From the NCBI GenBank assembly GCA_947632155.1, contig CANROF010000013.1, positions 1 through 48,765 of the forward strand: DNA of 48,765 bases. The letters run 5' to 3'. A program made the translations under genes and the position numbers. The DNA is from an uncultured Oscillospiraceae bacterium. GTDB lineage: Bacteria > Bacillota > Clostridia > Oscillospirales > Oscillospiraceae. Numbering within the stretch: the first letter of the stretch is position 1; the number at the start of each line of letters is the position of its first letter. This document shows, one piece after another, positions 13,868 through 41,623 of the stretch. The notes under the pieces were generated by a model, which worked only from the letters and a program-made list of their open reading frames with translations, was not told the origin of the DNA and made no database searches.

Positions 13868-14047
13868 CAAATATTTTTTCCGGCGACATGCGCGTCGGAA
13901 AAAATACCTTTTGTCGCCCAAGTGTGCCCCTGCGGGGCGCGCGCAGGGCGACAGCAGGGAAATTTTTCTGAATTTCGCAAAATTCAGAAAAATTTCCCGC
14001 ACGTTCCCCTTGGCATCGAAAGCCCGTCAGGGCTTTCGAGCCAGTTA
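13868..14047 (+). repeat. Modular hairpin repeat, copy A (full, four hairpins)
   Basis: Four stems in order. h1: TTTTTTCCG...CGGAAAAAA (13872-13904). h2: TGTCGCCC...GGGCGACA enclosing GCCCC/GGGGC (13912-13953). h3: a 19-bp stem GGGAAATTTTTCTGAATTT and its complement (13958-13998). h4: CGAAAGCCC-GTCA-GGGCTTTCG (14017-14039). Between h3 and h4 is GCACGTTCCCCTTGGCATC. The h4 end runs into the stop codon of relA (TTA at 14045-14047 on the plus strand). It fills the space between relA and dtd. Confidence 0.85.
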
Positions 14048-16261
14048 TGTGCCTTGCCTTTTGACTTCCTTGACGCTCCGGACGCCCATGATGCGCGTCA
14101 TGGCGGTGCCCAGCTCCGCCTTGTCCTTCACGCGCAGGGTGATGAAGACGGTGGCCTCGCCGCCGCCCATGTTCCGGGCGGTGAGGGCGTCCACCTTCAC
14201 CTTTAAGGACGCCAGGACCGTGGCGATGTCCATCACCAGGCCGTCCCGGTCATTCGCGGTAATGGCCAGGGCCGTCTGATAGCGGTCCTCCTCCCCCGGC
14301 GCCCAGTGGACGCGGATCCAGCGGTCCCCCTCGCCCTTCTCGGCGGAGGCGGAGTAGTTGCGGCAGTCGGTGCGGTGGATGGAGACGCCGTAGCCCCGGG
14401 TGATGAAGCCCACGATCTCGTCCCCCGGCACGGGCATACAGCAGTGGGAGAACTTGACCAGGCAGTTGTCTATCCCCTCCACGATGATTCCGTTGACGGC
14501 GTGGGGCTGCTTGCCGCTGGACGCTGCCCAGAAGGGCTCGGCCCCCTGCTTGCGGGCGGAGCGCTCGATAAGGCGCATCTCGTCCTTGATATTGTTCACC
14601 GTCTTCTGGGCCGAGAGCCCCCCGTAGCCGATGGAGGCGTACATGTCGTCCAGGGCGGAGACGGAGATGCGCTCCAGTATCCTGGGGAGGGCCTTTTCGT
14701 CGCTGAGGACGGACAGCGGCACCGCCTGGCGGCGCATCTCCGCCTCAAAGGCGGCGCGGCCGGTGACGATGTTCTCCTCCCGGCGCTCCTTTTTGAACCA
14801 CTGGCGTATCTTGTTGCGGGCCTCGGAGGACTTGACGATGCCCAGCCAGTCGCGGCTGGGGCCCTTGGAGGTGTTGGAGGTGATGACCTCCACCACGTCG
14901 CCGTTCTGCAAAACGTGGGAGAAGGGCACGATGCGGCCGTTGACCTTGGCGCAGGTCATGCGGTTGCCGATGGCGGAGTGGATGGAGTAGGCAAAGTCGA
15001 TGGGCGTTGCCCCGGCGGGGAGGCTCTTCACATCCCCGTGGGGGGTGAAGACAAAGACCTCGTCCGCGAACATGTCCACCTTCAGGTTGGAGATGAAGTC
15101 CGAGGCGTCGGAGTCCTCCTGCGTCTCCAAAAGGTTGCGTATCCAGGCGAACTTGTCCTCGTCGCCCCGGCTCTGGATGCCCTCCTTATATTTCCAGTGG
15201 GCGGCGATGCCGTACTCGGCGGTGCGGTGCATCTCCCAGGTGCGGATCTGGACCTCGAAGGGGATGCCCTCCGTGCCGATGACGGTGGTGTGGAGGGACT
15301 GGTACATATTGGGTTTGGGCGTGCCGATGTAATCCTTGAAGCGCCCGGGCACGGGCTTGTAGAGCTCGTGGATGCACCCCAAGACATTGTAGCACTCCGT
15401 GATGTCGTCCACGATCACCCGGAAGGCGTAAATGTCCATGATCTCGTCAAACTCCATGCTCTTTCCGAACATCTTGCGGTAGATGGAGTAGATATCCTTC
15501 GTCCGGGACTGGACGCCGCACTTTATGTGGGCCTCGTCCATGCGCCGGCGGATGGCGGCCTCGGTGCGCTCCATGAAGCCGGCGTTGCGGATCTCCCGCT
15601 GGCGCAGGGCGTTTTCTATCTCGTGGTACCCCACGGGGTCCAGGTACAAAAGCGACAGGTCCTCCAGCTCCAGCTTGATCTTGGACATGCCCAGGCGGTG
15701 GGCGATGGGGGCGTAAATCTCCATCGTCTCCCGGGATTTTTCAAGCTGCTTTTCCCGGGACTGGTACTCCATCGTCCGCATATTGTGGAGCCGGTCGGCC
15801 ATTTTGATGAGCACCACGCGGATGTCCCTGGCCATGGCCAGGAGCATCTTCCTCAGGTTCTCCATCTGCTCCTCTTCCTTGCTGGTGTAGCGGAGCTTCG
15901 TGAGCTTGGTGACGCCCTCCACGATGTCCGCCACGCCGTCGCCGAAGCGGCGCGCCACTTCCTCGTGGGTGACGGGGGTGTCCTCGATGACGTCGTGGAG
16001 GATGGCGGCGATGACGGATTCCTCGTCCAGCCCCATCTCCGCCACGATCACCGCCGCGGCCAGGGGGTGGGTGATGTAGGGGCTGCCGTCCTTTCGGAGC
16101 TGGTCCCCGTGGGCCTCCCGGGCGAACTCGTAGGCCTCCCGGATCCTGGCGGAGCTCTTTATCTGGGTACACTGTTCCACCGCCCGCTCCAGGGCCTCAT
16201 AAGCCCCGGCGCAGACGCTCTCCACAGACGTATTCACGGTTTTTGTGTCTGAATTATCCAT
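14045..16261 (-). CDS. relA: Bifunctional (p)ppGpp synthetase/hydrolase RelA/SpoT
   Basis: 738 residues from the ATG at 16261, which has CAGGTGA upstream; the frame stays open further up only as the antisense of recJ. Domain order: HD hydrolase (THPLAAAVI, LHDVIEDT near residue 88, KMADRLHNMRT), synthetase (YAFRVIVDD, KDYIGTPKPNMYQSLHTTV, FEVQIRTWEMH), TGS (VFVFTPHGDVKSLP...) and a C-terminal ACT domain. Both catalytic halves keep their motifs, so it should make and degrade ppGpp in response to starvation. It starts 20 nt after recJ. Its stop codon is the edge of repeat copy A. Confidence 0.95.
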   Translation of the reverse strand: MDNSDTKTVNTSVESVCAGAYEALERAVEQCTQIKSSARIREAYEFAREAHGDQLRKDGSPYITHPLAAAVIVAEMGLDEESVIAAILHDVIEDTPVTHEEVARRFGDGVADIVEGVTKLTKLRYTSKEEEQMENLRKMLLAMARDIRVVLIKMADRLHNMRTMEYQSREKQLEKSRETMEIYAPIAHRLGMSKIKLELEDLSLLYLDPVGYHEIENALRQREIRNAGFMERTEAAIRRRMDEAHIKCGVQSRTKDIYSIYRKMFGKSMEFDEIMDIYAFRVIVDDITECYNVLGCIHELYKPVPGRFKDYIGTPKPNMYQSLHTTVIGTEGIPFEVQIRTWEMHRTAEYGIAAHWKYKEGIQSRGDEDKFAWIRNLLETQEDSDASDFISNLKVDMFADEVFVFTPHGDVKSLPAGATPIDFAYSIHSAIGNRMTCAKVNGRIVPFSHVLQNGDVVEVITSNTSKGPSRDWLGIVKSSEARNKIRQWFKKERREENIVTGRAAFEAEMRRQAVPLSVLSDEKALPRILERISVSALDDMYASIGYGGLSAQKTVNNIKDEMRLIERSARKQGAEPFWAASSGKQPHAVNGIIVEGIDNCLVKFSHCCMPVPGDEIVGFITRGYGVSIHRTDCRNYSASAEKGEGDRWIRVHWAPGEEDRYQTALAITANDRDGLVMDIATVLASLKVKVDALTARNMGGGEATVFITLRVKDKAELGTAMTRIMGVRSVKEVKRQGT

Positions 16262-16281
16262 AATTTCACCTGAAATGAAGT

Positions 16282-17976
16282 TTATGCCAGGGGGATGTAA
16301 TCGCAAAGGCAGAGCTGCACGCCCCGCCGGCCGCGAAATTCGTTGATCTGGGGCGTGAAGGCCACGGCGGCGCGGCCGCCCACCCGGACGCCCAGCTCCT
16401 CCGGGCCCTTGGAGAAGTAGACCGCCTCGAACACCTGCCCCTGGAGGCCCAGCCACAGCTTTGTGTGCTTGCCGTCGGACAGCCCCGCGGCGTTCTCCAC
16501 GGTGACGTCCGCCATGCACAGCACCGGCTGGGGGTTGCCGGGGCCGTAGGGCTCCAGCTCGTCCAGGGCCTCCACGTTGGGGAGGCTCAACAGCTCCGGC
16601 TTTATGACCTCCAGGTCCACGTGGACCCGCTTCTCCGGGACGCCGCCCTGGCAGGAGGCGTACTCCCGGCCCAGGCCCTCCCGGAGGGCGTCGATCCTGT
16701 CCTCCCGGACGGTGAGCCCCGCCGCCAGGGCATGGCCGCCGAAGGTCAGGAGGTCGTCCCGGCAGGCGGAGATCGCCTCGTACAGATTGAAGCCCTCCAC
16801 GCTCCGGCAGGAGCCCCGGCCCACGCCGTCCTTTACGCAGATCATCACGGCGGGAAGGCCGTACTTTTCCGAAAGCCGCGAGGCCACGATGCCGCAGACG
16901 CCCTGGTGCCAGGTGCGGGACGACAGCACGATGGGCCTGCCCTCCGGCGGGCGGTCCCTCAGCATCTCCAGCGCCTCCCGGTACATGTCGCCCTCGATGC
17001 GCTGGCGCTCGCGGTTCATGGCGCACAGCTCCCCGGCGAGGATACCCGCCCGCTCCCCGTCCCGGGTGAGCAGCAGCTCCACCGCCACGTCGGTGCTGCC
17101 AAGGCGCCCGGCGGCGTTGATGCGCGGCGCCACGCCGAAGCCGATGTTGCCCACCGTGGGGGCCTTGGCGTCGATGCCCGCGGCCTGGCGGAGCTTCAAA
17201 AGGCCGGGGCGGCGCCCCGCTTTAAGCTCCTCCAAGCCCCGCTTGATGAGGACCCTGTTCTCCCCCGTCACGGGCATCACGTCCGCGATGGTGCCGGTGG
17301 CCACCAGGTCCCCGTATTTTTCCAAAAGCCGCTCCTCGCTGCCCGGCCCCTCCAGGGCGCAGACGAGCTTGAAGGCCACGCCCACGCCGGCCAGGTCCTT
17401 GGAGCGGGAGGGACAGTCCGGCCGCCGTGGGTCCACCGCCGCCACGGCCTCCGGTATGGGCCCGGAGCACTCGTGGTGGTCGGTTATGATCATCTCAAGG
17501 CCAATCTCCCTGGCGTGCCGCGCCTCCTCCGAGGCCGTGATGCCGCAGTCCACGGTGATGATCAGGGTGACGCCCCAGCCCCTCACGGTGTCCAGGGCCG
17601 CCGCCTTGACGCCGTAGCCCTCCTCCAGGCGCTCGGGTATGTAGATCTCACAGGGAACGCCCCTGGAGCGCAGATACTCCGTCACAAGGCAGCTCGCGGT
17701 TATCCCGTCCACGTCGTAGTCGCCGTATACGGCCACGCGCTCCTTATCCTCAATGGCCCTTTGGACGCGCCGGACGGCCCTGTCCATGTCGATAAACTCC
17801 ATGGGGTCGGAGAGGACACCCAGATCCCAGCGCAAATACTCCCTCACCCCGGCCATGTCCCGGACGCCCCTGGAGGCGAATACCACCGCCGCCAGGGGAT
17901 TCACCCCGGCGCGGCAAAGCCCCACCGCCGTCTCCCGGTCAAAGCCGTGTACATCCCATCTGTCGATCACTTTCAT
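16282..17976 (-). CDS. recJ: Single-stranded-DNA-specific exonuclease RecJ
   Basis: 564 residues. DHH-family motifs I-III are clear: GDYDVDG at 85-91, VDCGIT at 142-147 and ITDHHE at 164-169, with DHHA1 features later (GFGVAPRINAAGR, GRGSCRS, FGGHALAAG). RecJ degrades single-stranded DNA 5'-3' in recombination and mismatch repair, using Mn/Mg bound by the Asp/His residues. First gene of the recJ-relA-dtd-MBL-hemZ-kinase operon. The ATG at 17976 follows CAGGAGAC. Confidence 0.95.
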   Translation of the reverse strand: MKVIDRWDVHGFDRETAVGLCRAGVNPLAAVVFASRGVRDMAGVREYLRWDLGVLSDPMEFIDMDRAVRRVQRAIEDKERVAVYGDYDVDGITASCLVTEYLRSRGVPCEIYIPERLEEGYGVKAAALDTVRGWGVTLIITVDCGITASEEARHAREIGLEMIITDHHECSGPIPEAVAAVDPRRPDCPSRSKDLAGVGVAFKLVCALEGPGSEERLLEKYGDLVATGTIADVMPVTGENRVLIKRGLEELKAGRRPGLLKLRQAAGIDAKAPTVGNIGFGVAPRINAAGRLGSTDVAVELLLTRDGERAGILAGELCAMNRERQRIEGDMYREALEMLRDRPPEGRPIVLSSRTWHQGVCGIVASRLSEKYGLPAVMICVKDGVGRGSCRSVEGFNLYEAISACRDDLLTFGGHALAAGLTVREDRIDALREGLGREYASCQGGVPEKRVHVDLEVIKPELLSLPNVEALDELEPYGPGNPQPVLCMADVTVENAAGLSDGKHTKLWLGLQGQVFEAVYFSKGPEELGVRVGGRAAVAFTPQINEFRGRRGVQLCLCDYIPLA

Positions 17977-18026
17977 GTCTCCTGTAATCCGTTAATCCGT
18001 ATAGGGTAATTCTTTCATAAATAATT

Positions 18027-18055
18027 ATTATATCAAATCCCGCCGCAGATAACAA
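18027..18055 (-). promoter_or_regulatory. Promoter of the recJ-relA operon
   Basis: On the minus strand TTGTTA (18050-18055), 17 bp, TATAAT (18027-18032), leaving a leader of about 45 nt before recJ. It is divergent from the promoter at 18167-18175. Confidence 0.65.
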
Positions 18056-18166
18056 TACCGCCCGCGGAAAAAATTCATGGATAATATCGGCGGACGGGCC
18101 GCCGTGGGGGAAATGTAGAAAAATTATTAAAAAACAGCAAATCCGATTTAAATTTCCGTTGGGGTG

Positions 18167-18175
18167 TGGTATACT
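18167..18175 (+). promoter_or_regulatory. Extended -10 promoter of the U32-family gene
   Basis: TGG-TATACT is an extended -10 element; the -35 region (TTTAAA, 17 bp upstream) is poor, as usual for this promoter type. The predicted start is about 35 nt before the ATG. Confidence 0.5.
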
Positions 18176-18215
18176 TATCATGAGGAAATTTGTTTACATG
18201 GGAGGTGACGTTGGG

Positions 18216-20273
18216 ATGACGGAGCTTTTGGCGCCGGCGGGGTCGGCCGAGGGCGTGTCCGCCGCCGTGCAGAGCGGCGCGGACGCGGTGTATCTGAGCT
18301 TTTCCGCCGGGGAGGACCGGGGGAGGTTCGACCTTACCGAGGACGAGCTTGGCAGGGCCTGCCAGTTCTGCCGTATGCGCGGTGTGAAGCTCTACGTCTG
18401 TCTCGACGTCCGCCCCACGGACGCCGAGCTCCCCGCCGCGCTGGAGGTCGCCCGGAGGGCCCAGCGCATGGGCGCCGACGCCATTATCGCCCAGGACCTG
18501 GGGCTCATCTGGGCGCTGCGCCGGGCGCTGCCCTCCATGCCCATCCACGCCGGGGCGGGGTTGGGCATCCACGACGAGGACGGACTGCGGCTGTGCCGGG
18601 CCATGGGCCTTGCCAGGGCGGCCCTCCCCAGGGAGCTGCCCTTTGAGGAGATCAAAAAGCTCTCCGCCGCCGGCATCATCGACTTAGAGGCCGCCGTCCA
18701 CGGGCCGCTGTGCCCCGCCTGCTCCGGAAAGTGCGCCCTGTCGGGCGCGGCCGTCTCCGGCGGACCCTGCCGCGGGGAGTGCCTTTCGTACTTCACCGCC
18801 GGGGCCCGGGAGCGCCCGCCCCTGGGGCTTTTGGATCTGTGCCTGGCCGACGAGCTGGGGAAGCTCACGGATCTGGGCATCGCCGCGGTGCGCATCGACG
18901 GCCGGGAGCGCCGTCCGGAGTACGCCGCCGCCGTAACGGGCGTCTATTCCCGGGCCCTGGGCACCGGGCGCAGGCCCTCCGCCGAGGACCGGAAGCTTCT
19001 GGAGGGGGCCTTCCCCGCCGGGGGCTTCACCCGCGGGTTCTTCGCCGGGTCCGACGTCTCCGCCATGCGGGGCGTCCGGGGCGCGGAGCCCCAGGGCGAC
19101 ACGCCATTCTATGCCGCCGTCCGGAAAAACTACTTAAATCACGAGTTCCAGCGGGTCCCCGTGACCTTTGAGGTGGAGCTGAAGCTTGAAACTCCCGTGC
19201 GCCTCACCGCCGCGGACGACCGGGGGAACACCGTCTCCGGCACCGGCGCCGCGCCGGAGCTGGCCTTCCACACCCCCACCACCCCGGCGATGCTGAGGAC
19301 CGAGCTTTTCAACACCGGCGGCACGCCCTTCCGGTGCGACGGCGTCACCGCGTACATCGAAAAGGGCGTCTACATCGACCCCAAAAAGCTGGCCCCCGTC
19401 CGGGACGAGCTTTTGAGCCAGCTTCTCATGAAGCGCATCGCCATGGACAGCCGCGCCGAAGGCGTGGTGGACGAGCTCCCCCCGGCCCCGGCGGTCAGCG
19501 AGCCTCCGGTGCTGACGGTGATGGTGCGCAAGTGCTCGCAGCTCTCGCCCAGGCTCCTCTCCCTGGCCCCGCCGGTCATCTACCTCCCGCTGGAGGAGGC
19601 CGTCAGCGGCGATAAGCGCCTGGACCCGTTTTTGGAGGCCCGGGAGATCACCGTCTGCCCCGTCCTGCCGCCGGTGATCCTCTCCGGGGAGCTGGGGCGC
19701 GTGGCCGAACAGCTTTTCAAGGCCCGGCAGATGGGCCTCACCGAGGTCATGGCCGGGTACATCGGCCACATCATCCTGGCCCGGAAGCTGGGCTTCGAGG
19801 TCCGGGGCGACACGTATCTCAACGTCCGCGGCTCCAACACCCTGGCGGTGCTTTTGGGCCTGCGGCTCAAGTCCGCGGCGGTGAGCCAGTCCCTGAGCTC
19901 CGCCGAGGTCCGTACGCTTCGCAAGTACATCGACACGGAGCTTGTGGTCTACGGGCGGATGCCCCTCATGTACACCGCCGGGTGCGTCATAAAGGCCCAG
20001 ACGGGCGTGTGCTCCTGCGACAGCTTCAGCGGCATCCCCGACGCCCAGGGCTTCATGTGCCCCGTGACCCGCTCCTTCGGGTGCAGGAACGTGGTGTGGA
20101 GCGCGGCGAAGCTCCACCTGGCCCCCCGGAGCCGGGAGTACCTGACGGCGGGTCTGTGGGGCGTGCGCCTCAACTTCACCACCGAGAACGCCGACGAGGT
20201 GGTGCGGATCACCGAGCGCTATCTGGAGATGGGTACATACGAGCCGTCCACCACGACGCAAGGAAAATTTTAA
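18216..20273 (+). CDS. U32-family peptidase-like protein (RlhA/TrhP group, DUF3656 type)
   Basis: 685 residues from the ATG at 18216, selected because GGGAGGTGA lies 7 nt upstream. It begins with ELLAPAGSAEGVSAAVQSGADAVY in two parts (ELLAPAGS, then the AGADAVYL-like strand), the signature of U32 proteins. Cysteines at 166, 169 and 173 (CPACSGKC) and two near 184-188 could hold an Fe-S cluster. Although named peptidases, studied bacterial relatives hydroxylate rRNA or tRNA (RlhA on 23S C2501, TrhP on tRNA uridine-34), so an RNA-modifying role is more likely than proteolysis. The length and the C-terminal part fit the longer form with the DUF3656 collagenase-like domain. Its TAA is fused to repeat copy D. 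Confidence 0.85.
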   Translation: MTELLAPAGSAEGVSAAVQSGADAVYLSFSAGEDRGRFDLTEDELGRACQFCRMRGVKLYVCLDVRPTDAELPAALEVARRAQRMGADAIIAQDLGLIWALRRALPSMPIHAGAGLGIHDEDGLRLCRAMGLARAALPRELPFEEIKKLSAAGIIDLEAAVHGPLCPACSGKCALSGAAVSGGPCRGECLSYFTAGARERPPLGLLDLCLADELGKLTDLGIAAVRIDGRERRPEYAAAVTGVYSRALGTGRRPSAEDRKLLEGAFPAGGFTRGFFAGSDVSAMRGVRGAEPQGDTPFYAAVRKNYLNHEFQRVPVTFEVELKLETPVRLTAADDRGNTVSGTGAAPELAFHTPTTPAMLRTELFNTGGTPFRCDGVTAYIEKGVYIDPKKLAPVRDELLSQLLMKRIAMDSRAEGVVDELPPAPAVSEPPVLTVMVRKCSQLSPRLLSLAPPVIYLPLEEAVSGDKRLDPFLEAREITVCPVLPPVILSGELGRVAEQLFKARQMGLTEVMAGYIGHIILARKLGFEVRGDTYLNVRGSNTLAVLLGLRLKSAAVSQSLSSAEVRTLRKYIDTELVVYGRMPLMYTAGCVIKAQTGVCSCDSFSGIPDAQGFMCPVTRSFGCRNVVWSAAKLHLAPRSREYLTAGLWGVRLNFTTENADEVVRITERYLEMGTYEPSTTTQGKF

Positions 20274-20370
20274 CTGGCCCGAAAGTCCGGAGGGCTTTCC
20301 AGCCTGTCGAAAAAGCCCTGACGGGCTTTTCCGACAAGGGGAACGTGCGATTTGGGTTTTTTGACAAATA
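20271..20370 (-). repeat. Modular hairpin repeat, copy D (deleted form)
   Basis: Read on the minus strand this is the outer edge TTTGTCAAAAAACCCAAAT joined directly to CGCACGTTCCCCTTG and h4 (GGAAAAGCCC-GTCA-GGGCTTTTT), with h1-h3 absent. An additional stem (GGAAAGCCCTCCGGACTTTC) follows, ending at the TAA of the U32 gene. It separates that gene from maf. Confidence 0.75.
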
Positions 20371-20388
20371 ATACCAAGGAGAAATAAC

Positions 20389-20970
20389 GTGATCATTCTC
20401 GCCTCAGCCTCTCCGAGAAGGCGCGAGCTTCTTCTCAAAATGGGCATCGACGAATTTGAAATACGGCCCTCCGCCCACGAGGAGCCCTTTGACGGCGCTC
20501 TGGGCGTGGAACGGGCGGTGGAGCGCATCGCCCTTATGAAGGGCCGGGACGCGGCCTCCGGGGCGGGCCCCGGGGACATCGTGATCGCCGCGGACACGCT
20601 GGTTTTTTTGGACGGGGAGCCCCTGGGCAAGCCCCGGGACACGGCGGACGCCGTCCGGATGCTCTCCGCCCTCTCCGGCCGGGAGCACACCGTCATCACG
20701 GGCCTCGCCGTCCTCTCCGGCGCCGGCGAGCAGGTCTGCCACGCCGTCACGCGGGTGCGCTTCCGGGCGCTTTCCGAGGGGGAGATCCGCTGGTACGTCC
20801 AGAGCGGCGAGCCCATGGACAAGGCCGGGGCCTACGGCATCCAGGGCCTGGGCGGTTTGCTGGTGGACTCCATCGACGGGGATTACTACAACGTGGTGGG
20901 CCTGCCGGCGGCGCGCCTGGCGCTGATGCTCCGGCGGGCGGGATATGATATATTTTCGAAGGTGAAGTAA
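20389..20970 (+). CDS. maf: Maf-family nucleoside triphosphate pyrophosphatase
   Basis: 193 residues. It starts IILASASPRRRELL, the Maf nucleotide-binding loop, followed by E in PSAHEEP, AADTLV and GKPRD segments and the C-terminal GLPAARL. The enzyme hydrolyses dTTP/UTP or modified nucleotides to monophosphates and is linked to division arrest and nucleotide-pool cleaning. The start is GTG with AAGGAG 7 nt upstream. The TAA is immediately followed by the GTG of mreC, matching the maf-mreC-mreD order common in Firmicutes; mreB is missing from the series. Confidence 0.92.
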   Translation: MIILASASPRRRELLLKMGIDEFEIRPSAHEEPFDGALGVERAVERIALMKGRDAASGAGPGDIVIAADTLVFLDGEPLGKPRDTADAVRMLSALSGREHTVITGLAVLSGAGEQVCHAVTRVRFRALSEGEIRWYVQSGEPMDKAGAYGIQGLGGLLVDSIDGDYYNVVGLPAARLALMLRRAGYDIFSKVK

Positions 20971-21813
20971 GTGAAGGATTTCTTTTCCAAAAAGGGGATA
21001 TTCATCGCGGCGGCGGCTCTGCTGGTGGCGGTGGCAGCCGCCATCACCGTGGCCGTCACCGGCGGGCACGCGGGGTTCGCCTCGCTTCTCTCCGAGCCCT
21101 TCTTCAAGCCGGTGAAGAGCGCCATGACGTCCCTGGTGGGCTCTCTGGAGCGGACATACGACTACATGTACCGTTACGACGAGATTGAGGCGGAGAACGA
21201 GCGCCTCCGGGCCCGGATAGCCGAGCTCGAGCGGGAGTACAGGGAGTACCAGGAGATCAGCGAGGAAAACGCGCGCCTCCGGGAGCTTTTGGGCTTCGCC
21301 GCCAGGTACGAGGACCTGGCCATGGAGCCGGTGTCCGTCATCGCCTGGACGGCCTCCAATTTCTCCTCCTCCTTCACCGTCAGCAAGGGCTCCTCCGCCG
21401 GGATAGAGCTCTATGACCCGGTGGTGACGGAAAACGGGTATCTGGTGGGGCAGGTCACCAGCGTGACCTCCGCCTCCTGCGTGGTCACCACCGTGGTGGA
21501 CACGTCCATGCGCGTGGGCGCGCTCATCTATGAAAGCGGCGAGACGGGGGTGCTCTCGGGGGACTACGACCTCTTCAAGGCCGGGCAGCTCAAGCTTTCG
21601 TATCTCGGGGAGGAGAGCGGGCTCGTCATCGGCGGCACCGTCGTCACCTCCGGTTCCGGCGGCGTCTACCCCGCGGGGCTGGTCATCGGGAAGGTCAGCG
21701 GCATCGCCGTGGGCTCCTCGGGCCTGGACCCCTACGCCATCGTGGAGCCCTCCGCGGATATTTCCGATGTCACCCACCTTTATGTCATCACCGACTTTTC
21801 GGTGAACGAGTGA
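20971..21813 (+). CDS. mreC: Rod shape-determining protein MreC
   Basis: 280 residues: one membrane span (about 9-30), a coiled coil (about 68-105, rich in EAENERLRARIAELE-type heptads) and the two beta-barrel domains of MreC (VSVIAWTASNFSSSFTVSKGSSAGI onward). MreC is the extracytoplasmic scaffold that couples MreB/MreD to the elongation PBP. The start is GTG directly after the maf stop, with no separate ribosome site beyond GAAGGTGAAG inside maf. Confidence 0.92.
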   Translation: MKDFFSKKGIFIAAAALLVAVAAAITVAVTGGHAGFASLLSEPFFKPVKSAMTSLVGSLERTYDYMYRYDEIEAENERLRARIAELEREYREYQEISEENARLRELLGFAARYEDLAMEPVSVIAWTASNFSSSFTVSKGSSAGIELYDPVVTENGYLVGQVTSVTSASCVVTTVVDTSMRVGALIYESGETGVLSGDYDLFKAGQLKLSYLGEESGLVIGGTVVTSGSGGVYPAGLVIGKVSGIAVGSSGLDPYAIVEPSADISDVTHLYVITDFSVNE

Positions 21814-21822
21814 GGCGCGGCC

Positions 21823-22329
21823 ATGGAGAACACAAAGCGCCGCGCGGCGGTAAAGATACTTATCCTGGGTCCCTACCTCATCCTTCTCTACATCCTCCAG
21901 TCCACGGTGTTCACCCACATCGAGCTTTTCGGCGCCAAGCCCATGCTGCTGCCCATAGCCGCGGCGGGGATGGCCCTCTTCGGCGGGCGTATCCAGGGCG
22001 GGGTGTTCGGGCTCTTCGCCGGGATGCTGACGGACCTCTCCTGCAACCAGCCCACGGTGGAATTTACGCTGATACTGACCTTCTCCGGGCTCCTCATCGG
22101 GGTCCTTTCGGACACGGCGCTGGTGCAGGGCTTCCCCTCCTTCCTGCTGACGGCCGCGGCGGAGCTGGCGGTGTGCTCGGCGTTCCAGGTGGTGATCCCG
22201 GTCGTCCTCCGGAACGCGCCGCCGGCGGTGCTGGCGGGCATCGCCCTCCGGCAGTGCGGGAGCTCCCTGGTCTTCGCCATACCGTTTTACTACATCTCGC
22301 GCTTTCTGAGCCGCGTCATTTCAAGGTGA
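21823..22329 (+). CDS. mreD: Rod shape-determining protein MreD
   Basis: 168 residues, nearly all in five to six hydrophobic segments, in the fixed position between mreC and the elongation PBP. MreD proteins are poorly conserved in sequence; assignment rests on length, topology, position and the N-terminal LYILQSTVFTHIELFGAKP, which resembles other MreD starts. The ATG is 9 nt after mreC, with GTGAGGCG as ribosome site. Confidence 0.85.
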   Translation: MENTKRRAAVKILILGPYLILLYILQSTVFTHIELFGAKPMLLPIAAAGMALFGGRIQGGVFGLFAGMLTDLSCNQPTVEFTLILTFSGLLIGVLSDTALVQGFPSFLLTAAAELAVCSAFQVVIPVVLRNAPPAVLAGIALRQCGSSLVFAIPFYYISRFLSRVISR

Positions 22330-22335
22330 TGGAAT

Positions 22336-30021: not shown

Positions 30022-30027
30022 AATTTC

Positions 30028-32860: not shown

Positions 32861-32874
32861 AATAGCAAAATAGG

Positions 32875-32908: not shown

Positions 32909-32919
32909 ACGCGTTTTTC

Positions 32920-33327: not shown

Positions 33328-33344
33328 GACATATTCCTCCTTAT

Positions 33345-33542: not shown

Positions 33543-33562
33543 CAATTCCCACCCCCAATAGC

Positions 33563-33618
33563 ATAATAACACATATTATTATATGTGTCAACGGGGAGGA
33601 CAAATTTGTCCTCCCCGT
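33563..33618 (-). promoter_or_regulatory. hicAB promoter with nested palindromic operators
   Basis: On the minus strand TTGACA (33586-33591), 17 bp, TATTAT (33563-33568). Between the two boxes lies a perfect inverted repeat, ACACATAT-4 nt-ATATGTGT (33569-33588), well placed for HicB binding. Directly upstream, 33591-33618 is a 28-bp perfect palindrome centred on ACAAATTTGT. Confidence 0.75.
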
Positions 33619-33620
33619 CA

Positions 33621-33824
33621 GTTTGTCAAAAAACTCAAATTCAATATTTTTTCCAAGGACATGTGCCTTGGAAAAAATTCCTTTTGTCGCACAAGTGTGC
33701 CCCAACGGGGCGCGCGCAGGGCGACAGCAGGGAAGTTTTCGCTGAATTTCGCAAAATTCAGCGAAAACTTCCCGCACGTTCCCCTTGTCGGAAAAAGGCC
33801 AACGGCCTTTTTCCGACAGTTTTA
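33621..33824 (+). repeat. Modular hairpin repeat, copy B (full)
   Basis: The outer edge TTTGTCAAAAAACTCAAATT is followed by h1 (TTTTTTCCAAGG...CCTTGGAAAAAA), h2 (TGTCGC...GCGACA enclosing GCCCC/GGGGC), h3 (GGGAAGTTTTCGCTGAATTT and complement), GCACGTTCCCCTTG and h4 (TCGGAAAAAGGCC/GGCCTTTTTCCGA). The h4 end meets the argF stop codon (33822-33824). It separates argF from the hicAB promoter. Confidence 0.85.
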
Positions 33825-34727
33825 CCCGTTTATGAGCCTGACCAGGACGGCTTTTTGGGCGTGGAGGCGGTTTTCGGCCTCGTCGAAGATCTCAGCGGCG
33901 TGGGCCTCCAAGACCTCGTCGGTGATCTCCTCGCCGCGGTGGGCGGGGAGACAGTGGAGGACGATGGCGTCGGGCTTGGCGTACTCCATGAGCTTCGCGT
34001 TCACCTGGTAGCCGGTGAAGTCCCGGCGGCGCTTCTCCGCCTCCTCCTCCATGCCCATGCTGGCCCACACGTCGGTGTACACGGCGTCGGCATTGGCCGC
34101 GGCCTCGTTGATGTCCTCGGTGATGGTGAGGTCCCCGTTCTCATGGGCCCACCTGACGATGTCCGCGTCCGGGAGGTACCCCTTGGGGCAGCCGATAGCC
34201 ACGCTCATGCCCGTCTTGATGCCCCCCACGATGAGGGAGTTTGCCATATTGTTGCCGTCGCCGATGAAGGCAAGCTTGCGCCCCTGGAGGGTCCCCTTGT
34301 ACTCCCGGATGGTCTGGAGGTCCGCCAGGACCTGGCAGGGGTGGGCGTAGTCGGTGAGGCCGTTGATGATGGGAATGGAGCCGTAGCGGGCCAGGTCCTC
34401 CACCTCGCTCTGGGCGTAGGTGCGGATCATGATGGCGTCCAGATAGCGGCTCAGGACCCGGGCGGTGTCCTGCACCGGCTCGCCCCGGCCGATCTGGAGG
34501 TCCCGGGAGCTCAAAAAGAGGGCGTTGCCGCCGAGCTGGTACATGCCCGCCTCGAAGCTGACGCGGGTGCGGGTGGAGGACTTCTGGAAGATCATGCCCA
34601 GGGTCCGGCCCGCCAGCACCGGGTGGGGAATGTTGTTTTTCCGCTCGAATTTGAGCTGGTCGGCCAGGCCCAGAAGGTCCAGGATCTCCTCCCGGGAAAG
34701 ATCGCCTAATTTCAGTAAATGCTTCAT
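33822..34727 (-). CDS. argF: Ornithine carbamoyltransferase
   Basis: 301 residues. Carbamoyl-phosphate site SSTRTRVSFE, HPCQ and the ornithine-site HCLPAHRGEE are intact. It converts ornithine plus carbamoyl phosphate into citrulline. The ATG overlaps the argD stop (ATGA). Last gene of the arg operon on this strand. Carbamoyl-phosphate synthase is not in the window. Confidence 0.95.
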   Translation of the reverse strand: MKHLLKLGDLSREEILDLLGLADQLKFERKNNIPHPVLAGRTLGMIFQKSSTRTRVSFEAGMYQLGGNALFLSSRDLQIGRGEPVQDTARVLSRYLDAIMIRTYAQSEVEDLARYGSIPIINGLTDYAHPCQVLADLQTIREYKGTLQGRKLAFIGDGNNMANSLIVGGIKTGMSVAIGCPKGYLPDADIVRWAHENGDLTITEDINEAAANADAVYTDVWASMGMEEEAEKRRRDFTGYQVNAKLMEYAKPDAIVLHCLPAHRGEEITDEVLEAHAAEIFDEAENRLHAQKAVLVRLING

Positions 34728-35896
34728 TCTCCGATCACCTCTTTCAAAATTTCCACAGCTTCCCTGAGCTGTTCGTCCGTGATGTTGAGGGGCGGCAGGA
34801 GCCGCACCTTCTCGTGGGCGGTCAGGACCACCACGCCGCGCCTCAGCGCGGCCCGGGCCACCTCCCCGGCGGGCTTATCCGTGAGGATGCCCACCATGAG
34901 GCCCATGCCGGTGACGCTTTGGACGCCCTTCGCCCCGGAAAGCGCCGATCGGATGTACTCCCCCTTGCGGCGGACGCCCTCCAGGAGCGCGTCGTCGATG
35001 CGCTCCAAGATGCTCAGCGCCCCGGCGCAGGCCACCGGGTTGCCGCCGAAGGTGGAGCCATGGTCCCCGGCGCCCAGGGTGTGCTCCACCCGCTCCCCCA
35101 GGAGGCACGCCCCCAGGGGCAGGCCGCCGCCCAGGCTCTTGGCGGTGGAGAAAATGTCCGGCGTGAAGCCAAACTGCTGGTAGGCGTAGAGCGTCCCGGT
35201 CCGGCCGTTGCCGGTCTGGACCTCGTCCACGATGACCAGCATCTCGTGCTCCCGGGCGATCTTCACCACCTCGTCCACGTACTGCCTTGTCAAGGGCACC
35301 ACGCCGCCCTCGCCCTGGATGAGCTCCAGCATCACGGCGCAGCAGTCGCCTTTTTCGGCCAGCGCCCGGACCTCCCCGGCGTCCTGGGCCGAGGCGTAGA
35401 CGAAGCCGGGGGTGAAGGGGCCGAATTTCGTGTGAAAGGCGTCCTGCCCCGTGGCGGCGAGGGTGGTTATCGTCCGGCCGTGGAAGCTGTTTTTCAGGGT
35501 GATGATCGTGGCGCGGCTCTCGTCGCCGTACTTGTCAAAGGCCCACTTCCGGGCGGTCTTTATGGCGCACTCGTTGGCCTCCGCCCCGGAGTTTCCGAAA
35601 AATACCTTTTTCATCCCCGTGCGCCGGCACAGCATCTCCGCCAGCTTCACGCAGGGCTGTGTGTAGTAGAGATTCGACATATGCTGGAGCCGGGACGCCT
35701 GCTCCGCCACCGCCGCGGCCCAAACGGGGTCGGCAAGGCCGAAAGCGTTGACGGCGATGCCGGCGCCCAGGTCGATATAGCGCCGCCCGTCCGCGTCAAA
35801 GACCTCCGCGCCCCGGCCGCTGACGAAGACCACGTCCGCCCGGCCGTAGGTGTTGGCTATGTACTTTTTGTCAAGGGCTTTTATATCCATATCCAT
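34724..35896 (-). CDS. argD: Acetylornithine aminotransferase
   Basis: 390 residues from the ATG at 35896, which has GAGGAG upstream and lies 11 nt after argB; a longer open frame only runs antisense through argB. Class III PLP aminotransferase features include GNSGAEANE, KNSFHGRT, DEVQTGNGRTG and the Schiff-base Lys in STAKSLGGGLPLGA. It makes N-acetylornithine from the semialdehyde. Translationally coupled to argF. Confidence 0.94.
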   Translation of the reverse strand: MDMDIKALDKKYIANTYGRADVVFVSGRGAEVFDADGRRYIDLGAGIAVNAFGLADPVWAAAVAEQASRLQHMSNLYYTQPCVKLAEMLCRRTGMKKVFFGNSGAEANECAIKTARKWAFDKYGDESRATIITLKNSFHGRTITTLAATGQDAFHTKFGPFTPGFVYASAQDAGEVRALAEKGDCCAVMLELIQGEGGVVPLTRQYVDEVVKIAREHEMLVIVDEVQTGNGRTGTLYAYQQFGFTPDIFSTAKSLGGGLPLGACLLGERVEHTLGAGDHGSTFGGNPVACAGALSILERIDDALLEGVRRKGEYIRSALSGAKGVQSVTGMGLMVGILTDKPAGEVARAALRRGVVVLTAHEKVRLLPPLNITDEQLREAVEILKEVIGE

Positions 35897-35907
35897 AATC
35901 TTACTCC

Positions 35908-36765
35908 TCACGCCGTAAACATGGTGCCAAGGCCGGCGTTTGTCAGAAGCTCCATCAAAATGGAGTGGGGCACACGTCCGTCGATGATGAAGACCTTCCG
36001 GACCCCCCGGCGTATGGCCTCCACACAGCACTGGATCTTGGGAATCATGCCGCCGGAGATGACGCCCTCCGCCACCAGCTCCGGCACGTCGGAGACGGAC
36101 ATGCGGCGAATCAGCGTATCCGGGTCGTTCCTGTCCCGCAGGAGCCCCTCGATGTCCGTCATGGTGAGCATGGACTCCGCCCCGAGCTTCCCGGCGATGC
36201 GGGCGGCGGCGGTGTCGGCGTTGATGTTGTAGAGGTTCCCCGCCTTATCGCAGCCCACGGTGGAGATAATGGGGATGTAGCCCATGTCCAGCAGGTCCGT
36301 GATGGGCTTGACGTCCACGTCCTCGATCTCCCCCACCGCGCCCAGGTCCGGGTCCAACTGCGCGGCCCGTATCATGTGGCCGTCCACGCCGGAGATGCCG
36401 ATGGCCCGGCCGCCGGAAAGCTCCACTAAGTTCACCAGGTCCTTGTTGACCTTCCCGGCCAGGACCATCTGGACGATGTCCATAGTCTCCGGGTCCGTGA
36501 CCCGCAGGCCGTTTTTGAATTCCGACTTCTTTCCGGTCTTTTTCAGCATGTCGGAGATCTCCGGCCCGCCGCCGTGGACCACCACCACCTTCACGCCGAT
36601 CATGGTGAGCAGCACGATGTCCCCCATCACCAGTTTTTTCAGATTCTCGTCCGTCATGGCGTTGCCGCCGTATTTGATGAGGATGATCTTTCCGGCGTAT
36701 TTTTGAATGTAAGGCAGCGCCTCCGTCAGCGTCTGCGCCCGGAGCGCGTGGTCGTGTAAGTCCAT
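35908..36765 (-). CDS. argB: Acetylglutamate kinase
   Basis: 285 residues. ATP and substrate segments KYGGNAM, VVVHGGGPEI and the NINADTAAARIA motif are present, and GGMIPKI in the C-terminal half is typical of arginine-pathway kinases. The extra N-terminal helix (DHALRAQTLTEALPYIQKYAGK) is the mark of hexameric, arginine-inhibited forms, so feedback control is likely. An AAAGGAGGT ribosome site precedes the ATG. Confidence 0.95.
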   Translation of the reverse strand: MDLHDHALRAQTLTEALPYIQKYAGKIILIKYGGNAMTDENLKKLVMGDIVLLTMIGVKVVVVHGGGPEISDMLKKTGKKSEFKNGLRVTDPETMDIVQMVLAGKVNKDLVNLVELSGGRAIGISGVDGHMIRAAQLDPDLGAVGEIEDVDVKPITDLLDMGYIPIISTVGCDKAGNLYNINADTAAARIAGKLGAESMLTMTDIEGLLRDRNDPDTLIRRMSVSDVPELVAEGVISGGMIPKIQCCVEAIRRGVRKVFIIDGRVPHSILMELLTNAGLGTMFTA

Positions 36766-36780
36766 AGTCGGACCTCCTTT

Positions 36781-37389
36781 TTAATAATCCGTTACGTCGA
36801 ACTTTCGGTCTTTAAAGTAATAGTCTCTGTCCCGGTCGGTGATCTCCCTGATGACCCTGCAGGGGTTTCCGGCGGCGATGACGTTGGCCGGGACGTCCCT
36901 TGTCACCACGCTCCCGGCGCCGATGACGGAGCCGTCGCCTACCGTCACGCCGGGGAGGATAACGGCGCTGCCGCCTATCCAGACGTCGCTGCCGATGGTG
37001 ACGGGGATGCCGTACTCGTAGCCGGAGGCGCGGCTCACAGGGTGGACCGGGTGTCCGGCGGTGTAAATGGATACGTTGGGGGCGATGAGCACGTTGTCGC
37101 CGATGGTCACCTTTCCCACGTCCAGCACCGTCAGGTTATAGTTGGCGCCGAAATTCTCCCCCACCTCGATATTATAGCCGTAGTCACAGTGGAAGGGCGG
37201 CTCGATCCACACGGTTTCCCCGGTTTTCCCCAGGAGCCTTTTCAAGATCGCCGGTATCTCCCGGCGTCTCTCCGGCGGGAGGTGATTGAGCTCGTAGATG
37301 AGCCTTTTGCAGGCCTCCCGCTCCTCGGTGAGGCCGTCCAGCCACGCCTTGTAGGGAAGCCCGGCCAGCATACGTTCCTTCTGGTCCAA
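36781..37389 (-). CDS. Maltose/galactoside-type sugar O-acetyltransferase inside the arg operon
   Basis: 202 residues of the LacA/Maa group: N-terminal cap helices, then a left-handed beta-helix of hexapeptide repeats (IEVGEN, VTIGDN, VTIGSDVWIGGSAVILPGV, SVIGAGSVV). The catalytic His is in SIYTAGHPVHP. These enzymes acetylate sugars with acetyl-CoA. The start is TTG at 37389, supported by GGGGGAG 7 nt upstream and by the family's usual N-terminus. It lies 14 nt after argJ and 15 nt before argB, fully inside the operon; no role in arginine synthesis is known for the family. Confidence 0.88.
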   Translation of the reverse strand: MDQKERMLAGLPYKAWLDGLTEEREACKRLIYELNHLPPERRREIPAILKRLLGKTGETVWIEPPFHCDYGYNIEVGENFGANYNLTVLDVGKVTIGDNVLIAPNVSIYTAGHPVHPVSRASGYEYGIPVTIGSDVWIGGSAVILPGVTVGDGSVIGAGSVVTRDVPANVIAAGNPCRVIREITDRDRDYYFKDRKFDVTDY

Positions 37390-37403
37390 TTTCCGCTCCC
37401 CCG

Positions 37404-38621
37404 TCAGGTCCTGTAGTCGCCGTTTATCTTCACGTAATCGTAGGTGAGGTCGCAGCCCCAGGCCTCGGCGGCGCTGTCGCCGGAATTGAGCTCCACTAAG
37501 ATGTCGATTTCGTCCTCCAAGAGCACCTTTTTGGCCTCGTCCTCGGAAAACGGGATGCCGGCGCCGTTTTTACAGACGTCCACCCGCCCGGCGCGGGATA
37601 CGAAGCTCACGTCAACCTTTTCCACGTCAACCTGGGCGCCGGAGTAGCCGATGGCGCACAGGACCCGGCCCCAGTTGGCGTCGGCGCCGAACATGGCGGC
37701 CTTGGTGAGGCTGGAGCAGATGACGGCCTTTGCCACGGTCCTGGCGGTATGGCCGTCGGCGGCGCCGGTGAGGCGGCAGGTCATGAGCTTGGTGGCGCCC
37801 TCGCCGTCCTTGGCGATCATCCGGCAAAGCTTCACGGTGACGGCGTGGAGGGCCGCGCGGAAAACGTCAAGGTCCTCGCCCTCGCCCTCAATAAGCCTGT
37901 TCCCCGCCATGCCGTTGGCCATGACGGCAAAGGTGTCGTTGGTGGAGGTGTCGCCGTCAACGCTCACCATATTGAAGGAGGTCTTTACGTCCTCGGAAAC
38001 GCACCTTTGCAGCATCTCCGGGGTGATGGCGGCGTCGGAGGTGACCCAGACCAGCATGGTCGCCATGTTGGGGTGGATCATGCCGGAGCCCTTGGCGATG
38101 CCGCCCAGGCGGCACCTGACGCCGCCGATCTCAAACTCAACGGCCGCCTCCTTGGGGACGGTGTCGGTGGTCATAATGGCGTTTTCCGCCAGATCCGAGT
38201 GGTCCCCCAGGCCCGCCGTCAGCTCCGCCATGCCCTTTTTCATGGGCTCTAAGCTCATGGGCTGTCCGATGACGCCGGTGGAGCCCACGATGACGTCGGC
38301 GGCGGCGATGCCGGTATACTCCTCCACCAGCGCGCTCATGCCCTCGGCGATCTCAATTCCATTGGCGTTGCAGGTGTTGGCGTTGCCGGAGTTGCATATG
38401 ACGGCCTGGGCGTAACCGTCGGCCAAATGCGCCTTTGTCACCTTGATGGGCGCGGACCTCACCAAATTCGCGGTATAGACCGCCGCGGCGGCGCAGCGCC
38501 TCTCCGAGACGATGAGGGCCAGATCCCGCTTTTTGGAGCTGGCCTTGATGCCGCACCGCACGCCGTTGGCCCGAAAGCCCCGGGCCGCGCACACGCCGCC
38601 GGGGATGAATGTGATGTTCAT
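37404..38621 (-). CDS. argJ: Glutamate N-acetyltransferase/amino-acid acetyltransferase
   Basis: 405 residues. The self-cleavage site is MATMLVW, with T188 as the new N-terminal nucleophile of the beta chain; GNANTCNA and STGVIGQP are conserved in the alpha chain. ArgJ moves the acetyl group from acetylornithine to glutamate, giving the cyclic pathway; many forms also use acetyl-CoA, which would explain the absence of argA here. A CTGGAGGA ribosome site precedes the ATG. Confidence 0.95.
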   Translation of the reverse strand: MNITFIPGGVCAARGFRANGVRCGIKASSKKRDLALIVSERRCAAAAVYTANLVRSAPIKVTKAHLADGYAQAVICNSGNANTCNANGIEIAEGMSALVEEYTGIAAADVIVGSTGVIGQPMSLEPMKKGMAELTAGLGDHSDLAENAIMTTDTVPKEAAVEFEIGGVRCRLGGIAKGSGMIHPNMATMLVWVTSDAAITPEMLQRCVSEDVKTSFNMVSVDGDTSTNDTFAVMANGMAGNRLIEGEGEDLDVFRAALHAVTVKLCRMIAKDGEGATKLMTCRLTGAADGHTARTVAKAVICSSLTKAAMFGADANWGRVLCAIGYSGAQVDVEKVDVSFVSRAGRVDVCKNGAGIPFSEDEAKKVLLEDEIDILVELNSGDSAAEAWGCDLTYDYVKINGDYRT

Positions 38622-38639
38622 ACAAATTCCTCCAGTATT

Positions 38640-39053
38640 CTATAGGACCATGAGAAGCGTCCCCGCGCCGATGAGGACGCAGCCAAGAAGCGATTTTACG
38701 GTAAATTTTTCGTGGAGAAAGACGAAAGCCAGCACCAGCGTCAGGACCGTGCTGAGCTTGTCGATGGGCACCACCTTGGACGCCTCGCCGATTTGCAGCG
38801 CCCGGTAGTAACAGAGCCACGACGCCCCGGTGGCGAGGCCCGAGAGAATGAGAAAGAGCCAGCTTTTCCGGCTGATCTCAGAGATCCCGCCCTGGGTGTT
38901 GGTGAGGAACACCATCCCCCAGGCCATGGCCAGCACCACGCAGGTCCGGATGGCGGTGGCCAGGTTAGAATTGACGTCCTCAATGCCCACCTTCGCCAAA
39001 ATCGACGTCAGCGCCGCGAAAACCGCGGAGCCGAGAGCGAAAATGAACCACAT
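38640..39053 (-). CDS. Single-domain EamA/DMT transporter inside the arg operon
   Basis: 137 residues with about five membrane spans, corresponding to one EamA repeat (ALGSAVFAALTSILAKVGI at the start, SGLATGASWLCYYRALQIGEASKVVPIDKLS in two parts, FLHEKFTVKSLLGCVLIGAGTLL at the end). Full EamA exporters carry two such repeats; half-size forms work as dimers. GGAGGTGA precedes the ATG at 39053. Its place between argC and argJ suggests export of an arginine-pathway metabolite, which is inference only. Confidence 0.85.
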   Translation of the reverse strand: MWFIFALGSAVFAALTSILAKVGIEDVNSNLATAIRTCVVLAMAWGMVFLTNTQGGISEISRKSWLFLILSGLATGASWLCYYRALQIGEASKVVPIDKLSTVLTLVLAFVFLHEKFTVKSLLGCVLIGAGTLLMVL

Positions 39054-39150
39054 AAAATCACCTCCGGCGGGTTTCCCCCGCCAACACCTCCAAAAGCTCC
39101 GCGGCCAGCCCGTCCACGGACTTTTCCACGGAGCGGAGCCATAGACGCCC
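39054..39150 (-). other. Possible coding remnant after argC
   Basis: Straight after the argC TAG the same frame continues as GRLWLRSVEKSVDGL then AAELLEVLAGETRRR and a TGA that abuts the next ribosome site. It has the codon bias of the genome and reads like the C-terminus of a helical protein, but has no ribosome site or start of its own. It may be debris of a lost gene or the former C-terminus of another protein. I cannot identify it. Confidence 0.25.
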
Positions 39151-40079
39151 CTACACATTGAGCCCCGTGAGCTCGTCGGCGCCGATGAGTATGTTCATGT
39201 TCTGCACCGCCGCGCCGGAGGCGCCCTTGCCCAGGTTATCGAAGAGGGCCGTCACCGTGACGCGCTCATCTCCGCCGGAGACGATGAGCATCAGGTCGTC
39301 CCGGCCCGCGAAGGCGTTGGCGTCGATCATGGGCGTCCCCCAGTTGAGGGGCGCGACGTTGATGAGGCGCCGGTACTGGTACCAGTCGTCCAGGGCCTCC
39401 CGGATGCTCTTGGCGGTGGGATGGCCGGGCAGGAGGTCTAAGTGGAGGGCCACGGTGGTGGCCATGCCCTTGTAGTAGTCGTCCACGATGGGCGAAAAGA
39501 CCGGCACGTGGGCGAGGCCGCAGACCGCCCGCATCTCCGGAAGGTGCTTGTGGGCCTGGGTGAGGCCGTAGACCCGGGGGGCGTTGAGGCCGGCGGGCTT
39601 CTCCGGGGCCTCGTAGTCCGCGATCATCTTCTTCCCTCCCCCGGAATAGCCGGTGAGGGAGAAACAGGTCAGCGGGTAGTCCGCCGGGACGATGCCCAGC
39701 TTTACCAGGGGGTAGACGGAGACGATGAAGCCCGTGGCGTGGCAGCCGGGGTTGGCGATGCGGCGGCCCCGCTCGATGGCGGCGCGGTGGGCGTCGTCCA
39801 GCTCGGGAAAGCCGTAGGCCCAGCCCTCCGCCGTGCGGTGGGCGGTGGAGGCGTCGATGACCCGGACCGCGGGATTTTCGATCATGGATACCGCCTCCCG
39901 CGCCGCGTCGTCGGGCAGGCACAGGAAGGCGATGTCGCAGGAATTCAGGGCCTCCCGCCGGGCCTCCCGGTCCTTCCTGAGCTCCTCCGGGAGGGTCATA
40001 AGCTCGATGTCCCGGCGGGCCTTCAGCCGGTCGTATATCTGCAGCCCGGTAGTCCCGGCGCTACCGTCGATGTAGATCT

Positions 40080-40083
<4 letters not shown>
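39151..40083 (-). CDS. argC: N-acetyl-gamma-glutamyl-phosphate reductase (short type 2 form)
   Basis: 310 residues, the length of the shorter ArgC class. It begins IYIDGSAGTTGLQIYDRL, with the catalytic Cys in IANPGCHATGF and a His in GLAHVPVF. It reduces acetylglutamyl phosphate to the semialdehyde with NADPH. The ATG overlaps the argH stop by 4 nt (ATGA). Confidence 0.93.
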
Positions 40084-41453
<1,370 letters not shown>

Positions 41454-41469
41454 TGGGCACCTCCTGAAA

Positions 41470-41623
41470 ACTGGCTCAAAAGCCCCCTTGGGGCTTTTGA
41501 TGCCAAGGGGATACGTGCGGGAAAATATACTGAATTTTGCGAAATTCAGTATATTTTCCCTAGGGATTTTTCCCGACGTACATGCCGCCGGGAAAAATAT
41601 TGAATCTGAGTATTTTGACAATC
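41470..41623 (-). repeat. Modular hairpin repeat, copy C (lacks hairpin 2)
   Basis: On the minus strand: TTGTCAAAATACTCAGATT, h1 (TTTTTCCCGGCG...CGTCGGGAAAAA), then CCTA in place of h2, h3 (GGGAAAATATACTGAATTT and complement), GCACGTATCCCCTTGGCATC and h4 (CAAAAGCCCC...GGGGGCTTTTG). It fills the argG-argH gap; here the h4 end faces the argH ribosome site rather than a stop codon. Confidence 0.85.

Follow-up and report, generated by a model that had tools for sequence, protein, structure and literature searches.

A MITE family with IS1182-type ends and duplicated target hairpins in uncultured Oscillospiraceae

The hairpin repeats dispersed between genes in the window, that is, the whole stretch of 48,765 nucleotides that was analysed, belong to a small mobile DNA element with about 100 copies in the window's genome. 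They very likely constitute one family of non-autonomous transposable elements, with a younger form, type 1, that inserts at hairpins, and an older form, type 2. Type 1, exemplified by copy B, is a MITE with IS1182-type ends (CAGYYTGTCRAAAA), and its cleanest insertions are flanked on both sides by a copy of the same hairpin. Type 2, exemplified by copy A, is mostly found directly downstream of stop codons and shows paired changes in its helices.

Copies in the window

Four copies, A to D, were found at the places reported in the first-pass annotation, together with a fifth, partial one that had been left out. They and their surroundings are as follows.

13401-13841, minus strand: D-Tyr-tRNA deacylase gene, downstream of copy A
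13870..14044, plus strand: copy A, type 2, with hairpin 4 on the right-hand side in this orientation (transcribed sense, minus strand)
13873-13905: hairpin 1 of copy A
13912-13953: hairpin 2 of copy A
13957-13998: hairpin 3 of copy A
13999-14012: linker GCACGTTCCCCTTG of copy A
About 14009-14044: hairpin 4 of copy A
14045-17026, minus strand: RelA/SpoT-type gene at the right of copy A, its stop codon beginning at the base next to the copy
20271-20273: stop codon of a U32-peptidase-type gene
20274..20368, minus strand: copy D, short derivative, between the U32-peptidase-type gene and a downstream Maf-type gene
20274-20302: hairpin CTGGCCCGAAAGTCCGGAGGGCTTTCCAG of copy D, directly after that stop codon; the remainder consists of a type-1 hairpin 4, then AAGGGGAACGTGCG, then the type-1 end TTTGACAAA to 20368
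33591..33618: hairpin ACGGGGAGGACAAATTTGTCCTCCCCGT at the left edge of copy B
33619..33823, plus strand: copy B, type 1, with left end CAGTTTGTCAAAAAACTC from 33619, four hairpins inside and right end GACAGTTTT to 33823
33822-33824: stop codon of an ornithine/aspartate carbamoyltransferase-type gene on the minus strand, touched by the right end of copy B
41471..41624, minus strand: copy C, mixed, lying against the direction of transcription between the argininosuccinate synthase and lyase genes
About 41471-41504: type-2 hairpin 4 of copy C
41519-41560: hairpin 3 of copy C
41566-41598: hairpin 1 of copy C (CCTA stands where hairpin 2 would be)
About 41608-41624: worn type-1 end of copy C
48269..48298, plus strand: fifth, partial copy, a fragment of the hairpin-4 end
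48299-48325: separate hairpin with a T-run, after the partial copy

Copies A and B are 85% identical over 108 nt, and folding of copy B gave z values of -9.94 and -9.74 for its two strands. The right edge of copy B carries no second copy of the left-edge hairpin. In copies A, B and C the two arms of hairpin 3 are fully complementary, as had been described. The account of the fixed blocks was slightly overstated: the TTTGTCAAAAAACTCAAAT edge is absent in A and variant in C and D, and C reads GCACGTATCCCCTTG. A scan of the window against Rfam matched 5S rRNA and two tRNAs only, and no repeat copy; in a permissive scan of copy A all matches fell below the gathering score and were mostly to miRNA models.

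Extent of the family

The picture of a modular, covarying and dispersed family was borne out in the genome as a whole, an assembly of 2.50 Mb in 89 contigs. Neither outcome that the first-pass annotation had named as refuting it, a lack of further copies or covariation at chance level, was observed. Allowing up to two mismatches, 117 hairpin-3 cores were found, versus none for the reversed pattern used as control. A first scan for whole elements had given 173 candidates, 40 of which were scored. Forms were sorted on 106 distinct copies read with their flanks, which cover part of the 117 cores, and comprised 80 copies of type 1, 21 of type 2 and 5 others (hereafter "own" copies). The first-pass annotation had not recognised the family, but its younger form is recognisable as a MITE whose IS1182-type ends are accompanied by duplicated hairpins.

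Among 40 genomes searched, matches were confined to the genus: the window's genome and 16 of 24 others, and none of 15 from other genera. A 23-nt family pattern hit 60 stretches of named genomes, in a scan that may omit records near the window's genome; all are from uncultured Oscillospiraceae with isolate names in Lapin-, presumably of rabbit-gut origin. The related species G046, whose genome is 74% complete, has 24 core places, of which 17 carry the allele TGAATTCCGCAGAATTCA. By sequence, 11 of these cores are type 2 (filtered), three (L281, L285 and L300) have type-1 ends, and the remainder are mixed or other. Set against the own copies, this make-up suggests a burst of type 1 in the lineage of the window's genome.

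Type 1 is flanked by duplicated hairpins

Type 1 starts with CAGNTTGTCAAAAAACTC, ends near GACAGGCTG and measures about 200 bp; its left end is recognisable in 77 of the 80 own copies, and 75 have full flanks. It has the features expected of a MITE, being short and multicopy, with terminal inverted repeats, a target-site duplication and ends common to autonomous insertion sequences (ISs). Exact direct repeats of at least 10 nt flank 47 of 124 type-1 copies, versus 1 of 974 shuffled flank pairs. The own copies contributed 24 of 75 (control, 1 of 588) and the related ones 23 of 49 (control, 0 of 386), the latter being the copies entered out of 61 found by one exact pattern and partly non-independent. 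Perfect duplication is thus missing in most copies, 77 of the 124 having no exact flank repeat of this length.

The repeated segments are hairpins. A separate count limited to own copies again gave 24 of 75, versus 1 of 737 in shuffled flanks. Of the 24 repeats that reached 12 nt, 21 contained a stem of 6 bp or more, as compared with 7 of 72 control segments; for own and related copies together, this proportion was 40 of 47. Repeats ranged from 12 to 35 nt, with a median of 25, and their length followed that of the hairpin (rho 0.81, n=45), 36 of the 45 agreeing within 4 nt. Stems of at least 9 bp within 45 nt of the edge of own type-1 copies were found in 37 of 75 left and 38 of 75 right flanks, versus 8 of 432 controls. 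Inspected by eye, many flank repeats resemble intrinsic terminators followed by T-runs, and the T-run is mostly retained at the right-hand hairpin copy, so that termination is probably preserved after insertion. One flank repeat, at L013, is a parS-like palindrome.

Comparison of orthologous gaps, which had been proposed as a check, uncovered sites without the element. At three places the carrier has two hairpins and the element-free relative one (L042/L058, L055/L079 and L013/L030), the L013 carrier having a third copy of the palindrome nearby. Likewise, site B in G046 contains a single hairpin and no element, beside a gene that is 94% identical. The comparison leaves out L162/L061, L184/L057 and L208/L050, whose alignments are too loose.

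IS1182-family elements with the same ends

In sister species there are IS1182-family elements about 1.5-1.65 kb long, whose ends read, for example, CAGTCTGTCAAAAAAC or CAGTCTGTCGACAAAC. The IS1182 model NF033551 matched in 20 of 34 genomes of the genus and exceeded its cut-off of 270 bits in 8 of the 34, the transposase at L091 scoring 380.7. Seventeen loci were tested, nine of them above the cut-off. Seven of these nine combine CAG..TGT ends with duplication of a whole hairpin (22, 23, 23, 25, 25, 31 and 31 bp); matching ends with a hairpin duplication were not found at the other two, L116 and L136, nor any duplication at the eight partial or other loci. Among 147 genomes from the order but outside the genus, 7 had matches to the sister-species transposase, at eight loci. 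Hairpin duplications of 34, 28 and 30 bp were observed at L338, L339 and L340, respectively; at L337 both flanks carry the hairpin, with the loop inverted, L341 and L343 have differing hairpins on the two sides, and L342 and L344 yielded nothing. Two plasmid relatives likewise yielded nothing. IS1202-type and IS1634-type transposases were also considered and were dropped once IS1182-family elements with the same ends appeared.

In the 89 contigs of the window's own assembly, IS1182-like matches were all below the cut-off and no intact partner IS was found, nor did the sister-species transposase have a match at 1e-60. Some of these weaker matches have another end, GGGGCTGTGAAAA, as at L114, beside a family copy. 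Judging from the common ends and duplications, type 1 may be mobilised in trans by an IS1182 transposase.

Placement of type 2

Type 2 shares the type-1 body and terminates in GGCAT...GCCAG, its left end often being a worn type-1 left end. None of 18 own copies has a target duplication; one copy from a related genome (L035) has a 15-nt hairpin repeat at its flanks. With neighbouring genes called by a codon model that was correct in 96 of its 113 training segments, the 21 own type-2 copies were oriented along transcription in 17 cases, against it in 2, between convergent genes in 1 and weakly assigned in 1; between co-directional genes, 17 of 19 follow transcription. The 80 own type-1 copies comprised 23 convergent, 16 along, 5 against, 2 divergent, 25 weak and 9 short cases. 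In 14 of 21 own copies the type-2 end lies 0-2 nt from the start of a stop codon, versus 5 of 80 type-1 right ends. In a second selection this spacing was found in 15 of 20 own copies, 8 of 11 from G046 and 2 of 7 from other loci, as against 77 of 5760 random positions.

These observations bear on a different reading, which we regard as possible though doubtful: that type 2 is primarily a structured mRNA element of the REP/BIME kind, selected for RNA folding after stop codons, and that type 1 derives from it and gained IS ends. REP/BIME repeats are palindromic, intergenic and present in many copies. The orientation of the own copies and the proximity to stop codons, far above random, speak for such an element, as does strong covariation with conserved linkers (see below). 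However, the 11 type-2 copies of G046 comprised 3 along, 1 against, 1 convergent and 6 unclassified, and the seven at other loci 3 along, 1 against and 3 weak, so that an orientation bias beyond the own genome is not established. Occupancy of site A also argues against it: only 6 of 25 genomes carry type 2 there, a distribution that requires 5 changes on the tree, as many as shuffled labels give (mean 5.5). Here, a site was called empty when the core was absent from the flank-to-flank gap (L261, L264 and L267 being judged on 250 nt), and the G046 row of the tree alignment was 35% filled. At the G046 counterpart of site L176 the element is absent and the stop codon lies one base from an AGGAGG motif, and at the L146 site a remnant persists in L247 (genome G006).

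Paired changes in the helices

Among 47 distinct pairs of own hairpin-3 arms, from 86 filtered copies, 20 were perfectly complementary and 36 had at most one mismatch, as compared with 2.3 and 11.5% when arms were swapped between copies. Related genomes gave 13 and 27 of 41 distinct pairs, from 50 copies (swapped, 1.7 and 6.1%). An alignment of 32 type-2 copies from the own genome, G046 and related loci was folded with RNAalifold, yielding 57 base pairs, 28 of which showed changes on both sides. Of its 1821 cells, 98.4% are paired, with 260 changed on both sides and 8 on one. The covariation score was 0.391, versus 0.121 (s.d. 0.008) for shuffled alignments and 0.049-0.137 for slid structures, and no shuffle reached it. 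One of five measures, the number of further pair types, was unexceptional (57 versus 53.9; reached by 66 of 500 shuffles).

Covariation was accordingly well above chance, but the kind of pairs formed does not favour RNA. On the sense strand of type 2, G-U pairs were no commoner than A-C (8 versus 18 of 1821 cells), indicating no wobble preference and weighing against selection on folded mRNA. In type 1, G-T exceeded A-C on the window strand (202 versus 48 of 3759 cells), which counts against a general absence of wobble; the excess is largely attributable to ancestral mismatches held in common and to poorly aligned columns. Two sites occupied in both species compared provide further cases. At L022/L072 several helices differ and both copies stay paired, as selection for RNA structure would have it, and at L042/L070 the arms differ yet pair. 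Copy-to-copy conversion or repeated insertion could also have produced these differences.

Mutation rather than selection might account for the symmetry, the arms being made alike by template switching or by conversion between arms or copies. We consider this unlikely, although several observations fit it. One-sided intermediates are nearly lacking in type 2, as the 8 one-sided versus 260 two-sided standard cells show. Among 59 type-1 copies with similar hairpins on both sides, the best match was direct in 46, with one copy inverted in 5 and tied in 8; the five inverted cases, like the inverted loop in L337, could result from arm-to-arm copying. In addition, the host hairpin at site B differs symmetrically between the own genome and G046. 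The younger form tells against such a process: the rare pair states of the 80 type-1 copies were one-sided in 37 cases and two-sided in 7, counts affected by poor alignment around hairpins 1 and 2, even though the 7 exceed the chance expectation. Mismatched type-1 forms were moreover amplified, a single G-T mismatch in hairpin 3 being common to 40 of the 80 copies. Compared with the type-2 counts, those of type 1 indicate that change in pairs, pronounced over long times, is weak among recent copies. RNA structure, DNA structure or a copying process that regenerates symmetry may underlie it.

Fate of the target hairpin

It is quite improbable that insertion replaces the target hairpin without duplicating it, as for IS1272. 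When stems of 7 bp or more lying no further than 45 nt from the edge were scored in the 75 own type-1 copies, 32 had a stem on each side, 13 only on the left, 15 only on the right and 15 on neither. The last group is what replacement would leave, but such copies may simply have decayed; wherever both hairpins remain the target is duplicated, and the empty site has a single hairpin in three relatives. That the repeats are REP-type elements moved by a RAYT (Y1) transposase is hardly credible, since, although RAYT-like Y1 genes occur in the genus and one in the window's genome (L320:1222-2085), the repeats beside one example (L318) are of another kind (GGGACGGTTCTT) and motif searches at 11 Y1 loci revealed no complete family copy, with a left-end fragment in L320 only.

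Discussion

The reading we favour, a single family of non-autonomous transposable elements in two forms, would work as follows. Type 1, with terminal inverted repeats resembling those of the IS1182-family insertion sequences of sister species, would be moved in trans by a transposase of that type. It inserts at DNA hairpins, many of them terminator-like, possibly through a cruciform intermediate at the target, and the cleanest insertions carry a full copy of the target hairpin in both flanks. Type 2, with the same body and diverged ends, may be the older generation, its survivors lying mostly along transcription just after stop codons, with helices maintained through paired changes. A bolder possibility, which we rate as less likely than not, is that the transposase reads the cruciform rather than a sequence, that the target hairpin acts as the ruler of the duplication, and that selection on DNA palindromy, or on both strands, keeps type 2 at stop codons; for the last point, the basis is that helices change in pairs with no preference for G-U.

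With whole-hairpin duplication seen in many natural insertions, the choice of targets by their structure can be put to a direct test. Should the right-hand hairpin still terminate, as its T-run suggests, this would explain how about 100 insertions are tolerated beside genes. Type 2, covarying and anchored at stop codons, constitutes a large natural data set with which to separate RNA selection, DNA selection and template switching.

Comparison with known systems

With REP/BIME elements the family has in common a palindromic, intergenic and multicopy nature, and type 2 its proximity to stop codons, a placement on which a literature search found nothing for REP/BIME. It differs from them by its four distinct hairpins, by the DDE-type ends of type 1 and by the lack of any link found to RAYT. 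Bacterial MITEs, and BOX and RUP of pneumococci, are likewise short, multicopy and intergenic, with inverted ends and modular hairpins; the present family is set apart by IS1182-type ends and a duplication whose length tracks the hairpin.

The closest parallels are IS1272 and TnSha1 of staphylococci, members of the IS1182 family. According to the two reports (PMC4923244, PMC5678879), they too have an IS1182-family transposase and target hairpins or inverted repeats without sequence consensus, several of which are terminators, confirmed as such in PMC4923244. Insertion proceeds there by a blunt cut with part of the target deleted (PMC4923244), and the hairpin is lost wholly or partly without target duplication (PMC4923244, PMC5678879), whereas here it is duplicated. 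A further difference is that most copies described here are short and gene-less. In pathway b of the stem-loop model of PMC5678879 (Figure 13), stem-loops attacked at their 5' feet would be duplicated whole, the very outcome found here. This pathway was drawn in 2017 as a possibility beside the IS1272 deletion pathway; the present data, with many MITE and 10 IS loci, are consistent with it. Open-licence PMC literature, searched by title and start of abstract, contained no description of an IS1182 MITE or of natural whole-hairpin duplication. Hairpin targeting by IS1182 relatives is thus already known, and a MITE family with duplication of the whole hairpin seems to be new.

Sequences adjoining IS1182-type elements and variation within copies

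At locus L091, from position 2279 onwards, a sequence resembling the left end of the family lies immediately to the right of an IS1182 element and its hairpin copy, as if one hairpin were common to two elements. At L114 (positions 1118-1400), a locus of the window's own genome, another IS1182-like element directly adjoins a family copy with its end GGGGCTGTGAAAA. Hairpin 2, the second of the four hairpins of the element, holds a long additional insert in some copies (L178, L197).

Copy A, whose ends are diverged (type 2), adjoins the stop codon of a RelA/SpoT-type gene. In relatives, this gene junction (window 14045 region) was found occupied by other, longer inserts, with gaps of 216-858 nt (L257, L259, L263, L268, L269 and L271), and in this it resembles a hot spot for insertions.

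Inverted hairpin copies

Comparison of the similar hairpins on either side of an insertion showed that 5 of the 59 pairs matched better with one copy inverted (L149, L170, L215, L064 and L082). At L337:1396-2985, an IS1182-type locus outside the genus, the hairpins flanking the insertion have the loop inverted. Such an inverted hairpin copy or loop could be a record of template switching in gap repair.

Other repeats

A second, unrelated family of repeats, of the type GGGACGGTTCTT, is present in both orientations at L318:2080-2480, adjoining the following gene:

L318:1267-2103, RAYT-like (Y1) gene

Within a long open reading frame of the window, 9-nt repeats form a run (6516-6821) in which one 90-nt reference gave 25 overlapping matches. 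Around one insertion at L013 (ca. 900-1200) lie three copies of the parS-like palindrome TGTTTCACGTGAAACA; the relative L030 carries a single copy.
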